This document shows positions 56,894-60,565 of a stretch of 64,000 nt of DNA, one piece after another. This DNA comes from Sideroxydans sp. Its GTDB lineage: Bacteria > Pseudomonadota > Gammaproteobacteria > Burkholderiales > Gallionellaceae. Every line of letters begins with the position of its first letter. Within the stretch, counting starts at the first letter, position 1. The position numbers and the translations under genes were made by a program. The notes under the pieces are model-generated. The model searched no databases. It was not told where the DNA came from and was given only the letters and a program-made list of their open reading frames with translations. The DNA lies in NCBI GenBank assembly GCA_013791855.1, contig VMTA01000047.1:124001-188000 (forward strand), given 5' to 3'.

Positions 56894-57352
56894 TCAGGCG
56901 CCGAGAATGCCTTTTCCTGCCACTTTTTTGACTGCAGGCTTCTTAGCAACAGCCTTCTTAGCTACAGGCTTTTTCGCTGCCGGCTTCTTGGCAACGACTT
57001 TTTTCGCTACCGGCTTCTTGGCTGCGACTTTCTTTGCTGCCGGCTTCTTGGCAACTGCCTTCTTCGCTACCGGCTTCTTGGCTGCGACTTTCTTCACTGC
57101 CGGCTTCTTGGCAACTGCTTTTTTCGCTACCGGCTTCTTGGCGGCGACTTTCTTCACTGCTGGTTTCTTAGCAACGGCCTTCTTCGCTACCGGCTTCTTG
57201 GCGGCGACTTTTTTCGCTGCTGGTTTTTTGGCGGCGACAGCTTTTTTCGCTACCGGCTTCTTGGCTACAACTTTCTTTGCTGCCGGTTTCTTTGCTGCCA
57301 CTTTCTTGGTTGCAGGACTTTTCGCTTTGGATTTTGCAGTTGCCATTTTCAT
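56894..57352 (-). CDS. Histone H1-like Lys/Ala/Pro-rich DNA-binding protein
   Basis: Repeats of KKPAVKKVAAKKPVAKKAVA; about 60-bp tandem nucleotide periodicity. Confidence 0.88.
   Translation of the reverse strand: MKMATAKSKAKSPATKKVAAKKPAAKKVVAKKPVAKKAVAAKKPAAKKVAAKKPVAKKAVAKKPAVKKVAAKKPVAKKAVAKKPAVKKVAAKKPVAKKAVAKKPAAKKVAAKKPVAKKVVAKKPAAKKPVAKKAVAKKPAVKKVAGKGILGA
56940..57310. repeat. ~60-bp imperfect tandem repeat array inside the H1-like gene
   Basis: Recurring cggcttcttggcaac..cttcttcgctaccggcttcttggc..cgactttctt in the same register every 60 bp. Confidence 0.85.
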
Positions 57353-57519: not shown

Positions 57520-58767
57520 TCAATCGACGATCTTTTCGAGCGCGTACAACTGATCTGTTCTTTCACGCTCGCGAACAAGCTGCACACGCTCGCCGTCGAC
57601 CATCACTTCGGCCGCGCGCGGTCGCGTGTTGTAGTTGGAACTCATGCTCATGCCATACGCACCTGCCGACATGACTGCCAGCACATCGCCCGCTGCCACG
57701 GCCATTTCACGGGCATGACCGATGAAATCGCCCGTCTCGCAGATAGGTCCGACCACTTCGTAGCGCTGTTTCGGCGATGCATCTTTTTGCACCGGACGGA
57801 TCGCATGGAAAGCATCGTAAAGCGCCGGACGCATCAGGTCGTTCATCGCCGCATCGACGATGGCGAAGTTCTTCTCTTCACCGTGCTTCAGATATTCGAT
57901 ACGCGTCAGCAAGACACCGGCATTGCCCACCAGCACCCTGCCCGGCTCCACAATCAAAGATTCCGCACGGCCATGCAATGCCTGCAGCAACGCTTGCGCG
58001 TATTCGGCGATCGAGGGCGGTGTCTCGTCGTCGTAGCAGATCCCCAGCCCGCCGCCAAGGTCGATGTGTTGCAGCGTGATGCCTTCTGTTTTCAATTGAT
58101 CGACCAGCGCCAGCACCTTTTCGGCCGCCGCGATGAAGGGACTCACCTCGGTGAGCTGCGAGCCGATATGGCAGTCGATACCGGTCACGCGCAGATGCGG
58201 CATCGCTGCCGCCTTGCGGTACAGATCCAATGCCTCTGTGTAAGCAACGCCGAATTTGTTCTGCTTGAGGCCAGTCGAGATATAGGGATGTGTCTTGGCA
58301 TCGACATCCGGATTCACGCGCAAGCTGATCGGCGCGATCTTGCCCATGCTTCCCGCCACGTCGTTCAGCCGATCAAGTTCCGGTGCGGACTCGACATTGA
58401 AGCAACGGATACCAGCCGACAACGCCAAACGCATCTCTTCTTCGCTTTTCCCGACACCGGAGAACACCACCTTGCCGGCCGCACCGCCTGCGGCCAGTAC
58501 ACGCTGCAGTTCGCCGCCCGAGACGATGTCGAAGCCCGCCCCGAGTCTGGCGAACAGATTGAGAATGGCCAGATTCGGGTTGGCCTTAACCGCGTAACAG
58601 ATCAGATGTTCGCGACCTTTGAGCGCATCGGCGAACTGATAGTAAGCATCGGCCAGGGCGGCACGCGAATAGACGTAGCACGGCGTACCGAAACGCTGCG
58701 CAATGTCGATCAGCGACACTTGCTCCGCATGGAGTGCATCGTCACGGTAGTTGAAATATTCACTCAT
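57520..58767 (-). CDS. lysA: Diaminopimelate decarboxylase
   Basis: CYAVKANPNLAILNLFARLGAGFDIVSGGEL; HIDLGGGLGICYDDE; VGPICETGDFIG. Confidence 0.96.
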   Translation of the reverse strand: MSEYFNYRDDALHAEQVSLIDIAQRFGTPCYVYSRAALADAYYQFADALKGREHLICYAVKANPNLAILNLFARLGAGFDIVSGGELQRVLAAGGAAGKVVFSGVGKSEEEMRLALSAGIRCFNVESAPELDRLNDVAGSMGKIAPISLRVNPDVDAKTHPYISTGLKQNKFGVAYTEALDLYRKAAAMPHLRVTGIDCHIGSQLTEVSPFIAAAEKVLALVDQLKTEGITLQHIDLGGGLGICYDDETPPSIAEYAQALLQALHGRAESLIVEPGRVLVGNAGVLLTRIEYLKHGEEKNFAIVDAAMNDLMRPALYDAFHAIRPVQKDASPKQRYEVVGPICETGDFIGHAREMAVAAGDVLAVMSAGAYGMSMSSNYNTRPRAAEVMVDGERVQLVRERERTDQLYALEKIVD

Positions 58768-58903
58768 GTTGAAGTTCTAAAGATTGGGATTGATGGGGAA
58801 CGGCCGAGAATTGGGATTGCGCCGGCGGCAAATAAAGCGGTCCTTTGCGTCCGCATCCTTGCAAGCCGACAAGTAACAGCAACATAATGCACACTGTACG
58901 CAT
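58760..58903 (-). CDS. lptM: LptM-like lipoprotein (LPS translocon maturation chaperone family), not in the ORF track
   Basis: Manual translation MRTVCIMLLLLVGLQGCGRKGPLYLPPAQSQFSAVPHQSQSLELQHE*; lipobox LQGC followed by GRKGPLYLP; overlaps lysA start by 8 nt. Confidence 0.88.
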   Translation of the reverse strand: MRTVCIMLLLLVGLQGCGRKGPLYLPPAQSQFSAVPHQSQSLELQHE

Positions 58904-58941
58904 CTGTATCTTCTTCCTTAATTCGAAACGAGCGGGATTAT

Positions 58942-60246
58942 ATGACGGAAAGCGCCAGCGACGCTGCGGGAGACGCCTTGTTTACCCGCATCCGGCAGAT
59001 GGTGGCGGCACGCGGCGTGGATATCCGCCTGCAGCAGGAAGCATCTACACTCAAACTGATCTTTGCCGACGGCCAACGCATCCTGATCAACCTTGATCGA
59101 CAATCCCGGCATGTGTGGTTGGCTGCGGCGGATGGCGGCAGCGAGTTCGTCCCGCAAGGCACAAGCTGGCTATCACCGCAGCATGGCGAACTGCTCACCC
59201 GACTCGGCGAGTTGCTGGAGCAGACCGTCGCCAGCGACCCGCGCAATTCGCGAGCACCGATTCCTGCGTCAGCTGCGGAAACGCCTGTCATCATCCAGCA
59301 TATCCAGTCCGGCGGCGGGCACGGGCTACGCAATGCGATGATCATCATCTTGCTGGCTGCCGTCGCTTTCTTGCTGACACAACGACCGGGTCAGCCATCC
59401 CCTGCCGGAGAGCCTGCCGCTGTTCAGGCAGAACCTGCGGCATTCGCAGATAGCGAACGTCGCTGTGAAAGTGGCTTCCCGCAAAATGGCAGCACCACCG
59501 TCTTTCCCGAGAGTGGCTTGCAGATCGGTGGCACAGGCACCGAACTCACCCTGCACAACGAGCATGCCCACCCTCTGCTGCTGGTACTGACCGCCCCGCG
59601 CACCCTCATCCCCTCCTTGTCGGTACTGGTGCATGCACGCCAACAGGCAAGCGTACGCATACCGCCCGGACAATACGACCTGATGTTCGCTGCCGGTACG
59701 CGTTGGTGTGATGCGCGCAGCGGATTCTCCGATGGGCGCATGCTGAAGTTCAACGACTCGCTCTCGGTTCAGCATGACGCGCCGGTGCGCATCGCTATGC
59801 AATCCTCCGGTGCCGGGCCGGAAGATTTTCGCGCGCTGATCTCCACCTTTGTAGCCGCAACACCGCTGCCCACCCCATCGTTCAGCGGTGACGGCAGCAT
59901 GGCTGTCAAACGCCATGGCAACGGCCACTTCTATCTGCCCGGCAGCATCGCGGGCGTACCTGTCACCTTCATGCTGGATACCGGCGCCTCGGTGACCTCC
60001 ATCACCAGCGAGATCGCGCGTGAAGCAGGCGTGCGCAACTGCAAGGAGATACAGGTGCAGACCGCCAACGGCAGCACGACCGGCTGCATCGCGCTGATCC
60101 CGCAGATGACACTGGGCAACTTCACGCTGAAGAACATCACGGTGGCAGTGATGCCGAACATGGATACCAATCTGCTCGGCGCGAACGTACTGCGCAACTT
60201 CCGCGTCGGACAGGACGAAGACACCCTGCTGATCGGGCGCAACTGA
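58942..60246 (+). CDS. Fusion protein: N-terminal frataxin/CyaY-like domain, TM helix, C-terminal retropepsin-like aspartic protease (clan AA)
   Basis: N-terminus LKLIFADGQRILINLDRQSRHVWLAAADGG...SW...GELLTRLGELLEQT aligns with CyaY two ORFs downstream; TM NAMIIILLAAVAFLL; protease FMLDTGASVTSITSEIA...LLGANVLRNFRV. Confidence 0.85.
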   Translation: MTESASDAAGDALFTRIRQMVAARGVDIRLQQEASTLKLIFADGQRILINLDRQSRHVWLAAADGGSEFVPQGTSWLSPQHGELLTRLGELLEQTVASDPRNSRAPIPASAAETPVIIQHIQSGGGHGLRNAMIIILLAAVAFLLTQRPGQPSPAGEPAAVQAEPAAFADSERRCESGFPQNGSTTVFPESGLQIGGTGTELTLHNEHAHPLLLVLTAPRTLIPSLSVLVHARQQASVRIPPGQYDLMFAAGTRWCDARSGFSDGRMLKFNDSLSVQHDAPVRIAMQSSGAGPEDFRALISTFVAATPLPTPSFSGDGSMAVKRHGNGHFYLPGSIAGVPVTFMLDTGASVTSITSEIAREAGVRNCKEIQVQTANGSTTGCIALIPQMTLGNFTLKNITVAVMPNMDTNLLGANVLRNFRVGQDEDTLLIGRN

Positions 60247-60256
60247 TAATGGAGAG

Positions 60257-60565
60257 ATGATGACAGAGAGCGAATTCAATACCCTGGCCGACCAGGTCTT
60301 CCAGCGCATCGAACACGCGCTGGATGCGACCGACATCGACTACGACAGCAACGGCATGGTGATGGAGATCGAGTTCGATGACGGCAGCAAGGTCATCGTG
60401 AACCGCCATGTACCCAACCGTGAGATCTGGCTGGCGGCCCGTTCAGGCGGCTTTCATTTCGGCTGGCAGGACGATAGCTGGATCAACCAGCGCGATGGCG
60501 ACGAGCTGTATGCCAAACTGGCCGCACTGATACAGACCGGATCGGGAAGCGCATTCGAATTCTGA
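60257..60565 (+). CDS. cyaY: Frataxin homologue CyaY
   Basis: MTESEFNTLADQVFQRIEHALD...EFDDGSKVIVNRHVPNREIWLAARSGGFHFGW. Confidence 0.95.
   Translation: MMTESEFNTLADQVFQRIEHALDATDIDYDSNGMVMEIEFDDGSKVIVNRHVPNREIWLAARSGGFHFGWQDDSWINQRDGDELYAKLAALIQTGSGSAFEF

Follow-up and report, generated by a model that had tools for sequence, protein, structure and literature searches.

One intact gene in the window (the whole stretch of 64,000 nucleotides analysed here) joins a frataxin-like domain to a predicted transmembrane (TM) helix, a beta-sandwich domain and a retropepsin-like aspartic protease, and this fusion is a new architecture of known parts. Frataxin fusions are known already, as are membrane-bound or secreted retropepsin-like proteases; their combination, of which the earlier note knew no described case, did not turn up in the searched literature (covering few subscription papers), nor did any description linking frataxin with a retropepsin or with Sideroxydans. 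Our favoured reading, held with about even confidence, is that the frataxin fold was repurposed as a cytoplasmic docking or gating domain of a periplasmic protease or pseudoprotease, within a single-pass protein that arose by fusion of a cyaY copy.

Gene locus and predicted domains

The fusion gene (58942..60246, + strand, 434 aa) is an intact open reading frame of 434 codons and is followed after a gap of 10 bp by cyaY (60257..60565, + strand), which encodes a canonical bacterial frataxin (TIGR03421, 115.1 bits; cut-off 53.25); the two genes are likely co-transcribed. They are preceded by a divergent pair consisting of an lptM-like gene for a small lipoprotein (MRTVCIMLLLLVGLQGCGRKGPLYLPP...; 58760..58903, − strand), orthologues of which are also present at the empty site described below, and a lysA-like gene (57520..58767, − strand), which is a conserved flank of the locus. 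As the start codons of the divergent lptM and fusion genes are only 38 bp apart (58903-58942), the promoter of the fusion gene and cyaY must overlap lptM. A GATTAT stretch located 5' of the fusion start is conserved in nearly all of 26 loci. Upstream of lysA, a 152-aa Lys-Ala-Pro-rich repeat protein resembling histone H1, with AAKKPVAKKAVAKKPA repeats, is encoded at 56894-57352 (− strand).

The frataxin-like domain (residues 1-98, 58942..59235, + strand) was detected with PF01491 when residues 1-107 were searched (E 1.7e-8, 35.0 bits; gathering score 21.3), and the whole fusion protein still scored above this threshold (30.8 bits), with the Frataxin_Cyay match spanning residues 5-93 and retropepsin-like families spanning residues 333-419 (Pfam). 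Searches of the PDB with phmmer matched the N-terminal domain to CyaY structures at E-values between 4e-7 and 1e-5; with a profile of the fusion family, CyaY chains (4e-12) as well as the Rickettsia APRc protease (1.6e-11) were matched. AlphaFold2 modelled residues ~8-98 with the alpha-beta6-alpha order of frataxin (helix 8-24, six strands, helix 84-98; pLDDT mostly 84-93), and Foldseek retrieved the CyaY structures 4jpd, 1ew4, 4hs5 and 4lp1 for this part (target TM 0.78 for 4hs5_A). Pfam, PDB searches, AlphaFold and Foldseek hence agree on a frataxin-like N-terminal domain beside cyaY, as the earlier note had read from the translation. Against the CyaY equivalog model TIGR03421, the fusion scored 43.8 and 47.8 bits, i.e., under the cut-off of 53.25 (NCBIfam).

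The frataxin-like domain is followed on the same (+) strand by a low-confidence linker (residues 99-127, 59236..59322), which together with the TM part is the fastest-evolving region, and by the predicted TM helix (residues 128-144, 59323..59373). The latter was assigned from hydropathy and an AF2 helix; its hydropathy is modest and nearly matched by that of another hydrophobic stretch, and the charges on its flanks are ambiguous. The beta-sandwich middle domain (residues 166-314, 59437..59883, + strand) contains the invariant Cys175 and Cys256, and had no Pfam or NCBIfam family and no confident PDB match; weak fold matches (E ~1e-3) to the PepT ectodomain and to the AlgF C-terminal domain were not relied upon. 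The retropepsin-like protease domain (residues 315-434, 59884..60243, + strand), which like the beta-sandwich is seen in the AlphaFold2 model, contains Cys367, Cys382, the DTGAS motif (residues 346-350, starting with D346) and L411-L412-G413, which is invariant among the fusions. It was recognised by PF13975 (E 1.2e-20, 74.3 bits; cut-off 28.2) and by TIGR02281 (75.3 bits; cut-off 57.95, NCBIfam), which, along with the predicted TM helix, bears out the membrane-anchored retropepsin-like protease that had been proposed from the sequence. The four Cys, all C-terminal of the TM helix, are invariant in the aligned fusions and in Nitrosomonas relatives and may form disulphides. At a whole-chain pTM of 0.36, the relative placement of the domains in the AF2 model is unreliable.

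Occurrence and origin of the fusion

Full-length fusions were found in 26 of 34 genomes of the Sideroxydans genus and in three genomes of the Nitrotoga group (genus g36), and C-terminal pieces adjoining cyaY in three further Sideroxydans-genus genomes. The fusion was present in every genome of the Sideroxydans genus with a completeness of at least 89%; its absence from G007, G009 and G029 is uninformative, these genomes being 63-73% complete. An assembly error or frameshift joining two genes, a doubt raised in the earlier note, is ruled out by the full-length genes of the 26 + 3 genomes, i.e., 29 orthologues without internal stops. No full-length fusion was found in the other genera of the host family, the large genus g32 included, and a class-wide sample of 369 genomes provided no additional full-length match. 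In an order-wide sample, the frataxin domain was detected in 247 of 399 genomes, with two copies only in the four sampled members of the Sideroxydans genus, and the middle domain in nine of the 399, namely four Sideroxydans-genus members, four members of genus g19 (classed as Nitrosomonas-like because they resemble the named loci L059 and L061), and G407.

The best history for the fusion is a tandem duplication of cyaY followed, presumably in that order, by fusion to a Nitrosomonas-type protease gene. Tandem duplication and fusion had been suggested before, and the suggestion stands, because the fusion gene and cyaY are adjacent and both begin with MTES, because the fusion frataxin domains form one clade beside the CyaYs (support 100/99 in a tree on about 100 columns, in which the exact placement of this clade among the CyaYs is not fixed), because lysA, lptM and cyaY are directly adjacent at an empty site without the fusion in G011 and G002, and because relatives without frataxin exist. 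Among these, the Nitrosomonas relatives consist of a TM helix, the middle domain and the protease, and the G407 relative of a middle domain and protease in a secreted-looking protein; in the relative L168, a signal-peptide-like N-terminal stretch stands directly ahead of the middle domain. The most divergent fusion carrier, G163, has the most CyaY-like start (MTESDFNELT), and its fusion is still located in the lysA-cyaY locus, with one additional gene in between. This gene (L119:4502-5926) encodes a secreted-looking protein of 474 aa that is DUF4139-like by eye.

In the Nitrotoga-group genomes G161 and G169, the fusions are located elsewhere, beside ubiG-like and gph-like genes. In the frataxin tree these copies nest within the fusion clade of Sideroxydans, and in the tree of middle domain and protease they stand among Sideroxydans, where their exact branch is not fixed. 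They were probably acquired from Sideroxydans by transfer.

Remodelling of the frataxin surface

Residues were compared in E. coli CyaY numbering across 29 fusion domains, 40 CyaYs of the host family, and 20 further CyaYs; the numbering follows what we take to be the E. coli reference sequence, which agrees with the stretches seen in the PDB matches. Over the equivalent of E. coli 8-36, the mean net charge was −5.9 in the 40 family CyaYs, −4.5 in the 20 further CyaYs, and 0.0 in the 29 fusions; the acidic ridge on helix 1 and strand 1, the CyaY site for iron and IscS, is neutralised in the fusions. Arg53 is replaced and His70 is changed to Glu in 29/29 fusions, and position 54 is occupied by Asp (26) or Asn (3). 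Trp61, Ala63 and Trp78 are retained in all 29, Asn52 in 28/29, and the Gly-Gly is retained as well. In CyaY, acidic residues are among the IscS-affected positions, Arg53 and IscS Glu334 form a salt bridge in a modelled complex, and Trp61, Arg53 and His70 are among the IscU-affected positions, Asn52 also lying on the IscU-facing surface (PMC5346568).

Two derived residues, Gln45 and Glu68 (fusion numbering), are fixed in the fusion frataxin domain, and across the compared pairs its dN/dS was 0.07-0.27 vs 0.27-0.83 for the linker (here and below, rough values, each obtained for a single pair with a simple counting method). With new residues fixed and a dN/dS that is low relative to the linker, the comparison indicates that the canonical CyaY surface is rebuilt and not left to decay. 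The same fixed residues and the same constraint argue against the frataxin domain being a mere inherited cytoplasmic tail for stability or anchoring, with all function residing in the periplasm as in the Nitrosomonas relatives. This reading would suit the frataxin-less combination of middle domain and protease in the Nitrosomonas and G407 relatives as well as the mean identity among fusions, which is highest in the protease (0.76, vs 0.59 in the frataxin part); we regard it as unlikely.

Natural variants without ISC or without the protease active site

ISC is present in Sideroxydans, with IscU and HscA in the window's genome and IscU in G163. In G161 and G169, the fusion is the sole frataxin match and cyaY is absent; neither HscA above cut-off nor an ISC-type IscU was found in these two genomes, and their NifU_N matches are weak (about 74 bits vs about 180 in Sideroxydans). 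The dN/dS of their frataxin domain was 0.11 (7 nonsynonymous and 15 synonymous changes). A frataxin-like protein can also serve SUF systems, which leaves some room for an Fe-S role in the Nitrotoga group. Across the order, G153, G161, G167, G168, G169 and the Nitrosomonas-like G051 and G336 (cyaY being absent altogether from G051) had no canonical CyaY, ISC-type IscU or HscA above cut-off; what these seven genomes did have was a weaker NifU_N match of the SufU-like kind. In nitrifiers of this order, ISC and frataxin seem to be missing together, as one unit.

Retention of the fusion in genomes without ISC weighs against a role as a membrane tether, in which the frataxin domain would hold ISC (IscU/IscS) at the inner membrane and the protease part would be a partner in envelope Fe-S or cytochrome assembly. 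Although Trp61 and Asn52 of the IscU-facing surface are kept, the gene is co-located with cyaY, and IscU and HscA occur in the window's genome, the charge of that very surface is altered (Asp/Asn at position 54, Glu in place of His70), and we consider such a tether improbable.

The DTG is kept in 26 of the 29 fusions, whereas L022, L023 and L026 have DTDSP or DPDTP in place of DTGAS; in L022 and L023 the conserved TANG motif is changed as well. These three form one clade (97/89, tree of middle domain and protease), and their protease domain is still constrained (dN/dS 0.16-0.32). The protein of this clade is a predicted pseudoprotease, and its periplasmic part probably acts by binding and not by cutting. 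Because the fusion is kept without ISC in G161 and G169 and without the DTG in this clade, ISC-type frataxin activity and proteolysis are each dispensable for retention in some lineage. As the gene is missing from two members of the genus and the DTG from one clade, the protein is not essential, and proteolysis is not essential either.

These variants also bear on the coupling of envelope proteolysis to iron status that the earlier note had envisaged. In such a reading, the frataxin domain would continue to sense the state of iron or of Fe-S assembly and relay it to the periplasmic protease. The genuine frataxin homology adjoining cyaY, the intact fold with Trp61, Asn52 and Gly-Gly kept, and the many hosts belonging to the iron-oxidising genus Sideroxydans are in its favour. 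However, the carboxylate surface is gone (neutral acidic ridge, Arg53 and His70 replaced), two Nitrotoga-group genomes retain the fusion without CyaY, IscU and HscA, and the protease active site is lost in one clade. In addition, the best 19-mers within 200 bp upstream of 26 loci had 10-12 matches to the Fur box, which was no better than shuffles. The proposed coupling to iron is not supported by these results, and we hold it to be very unlikely.

Working model

The favoured reading, a docking or gating role of the cytoplasmic domain, would start from a tandem cyaY copy joined to a gene encoding a periplasmic beta-sandwich and retropepsin-like protease. The product would be a single-pass inner-membrane protein with a cytoplasmic N-terminus and a periplasmic C-terminus, an orientation suggested because frataxin is cytosolic, the four Cys are only C-terminal of the TM helix, one relative looks secreted, and APRc has the same predicted orientation. 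The frataxin-derived domain would have given up the work of iron donor and IscS regulator, and would either dock the protein at a putative partner or control whether two copies pair. Since a retropepsin has to dimerise to be active, a pairing or docking cytoplasmic domain could, by analogy, gate the periplasmic protease, so that cytoplasmic pairing would switch its action on a putative substrate. A more far-reaching version, which we put forward tentatively and with considerable doubt, is that the frataxin-derived domain, released from its part in Fe-S assembly, may be a transmembrane signalling input controlling the pairing, and thereby the activity, of the periplasmic retropepsin, an inside-out protease switch not previously described.

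Work on frataxin has centred almost exclusively on Fe-S assembly and Friedreich ataxia, and it is debated which elements of its fold have to do with iron. The fusion domain is a natural duplicate in which the core is kept, the acidic ridge and partner surface are dropped, and selection persists even without ISC, and it hence provides a natural mutant series for telling frataxin fold from function. It also offers a tractable system in which to study the control of a periplasmic retropepsin by a domain in the cytoplasm.

Relation to known proteins

The frataxin part resembles bacterial CyaY (PF01491, TIGR03421) in its fold, the core of Trp61, Trp78 and Gly-Gly, its position next to cyaY, and its single-clade origin beside the CyaYs of the family, but differs from it in scoring under the equivalog cut-off, in the neutral ridge and replaced Arg53/His70, and in the added membrane and periplasmic domains. 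The protease domain scores above the cut-off of the TIGR02281 clan AA proteases, in which we know of no frataxin domain; Caulobacter PerP is presumably a periplasmic example of this type. The Nitrosomonas proteins L027, L059 and L061 have the middle domain, the protease and the four Cys in common with the fusion, but carry a short N-terminal cytoplasmic part without frataxin.

Among proteases of known structure, Rickettsia APRc (5c9b/5c9d/5c9f) shares the fold (Foldseek E 2.8e-9, target TM 0.80), the DTG and hydrophobic-hydrophobic-Gly motifs, and an anchor ahead of the protease; it is dimeric, with a predicted N-in/C-out orientation (PMC4140852). Unlike the fusion, APRc is predicted to have three TM helices, with neither a frataxin nor a beta-sandwich domain, and the loss of the active site in one clade sets the fusion family apart from it. 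Frataxin-rhodanese-glutaredoxin fusions are bacterial multidomain proteins in which the acidic iron-binding residues are mostly kept (PMC2679010); they join domains related to Fe-S, whereas here the partner is an envelope protease and the acidic residues are lost.
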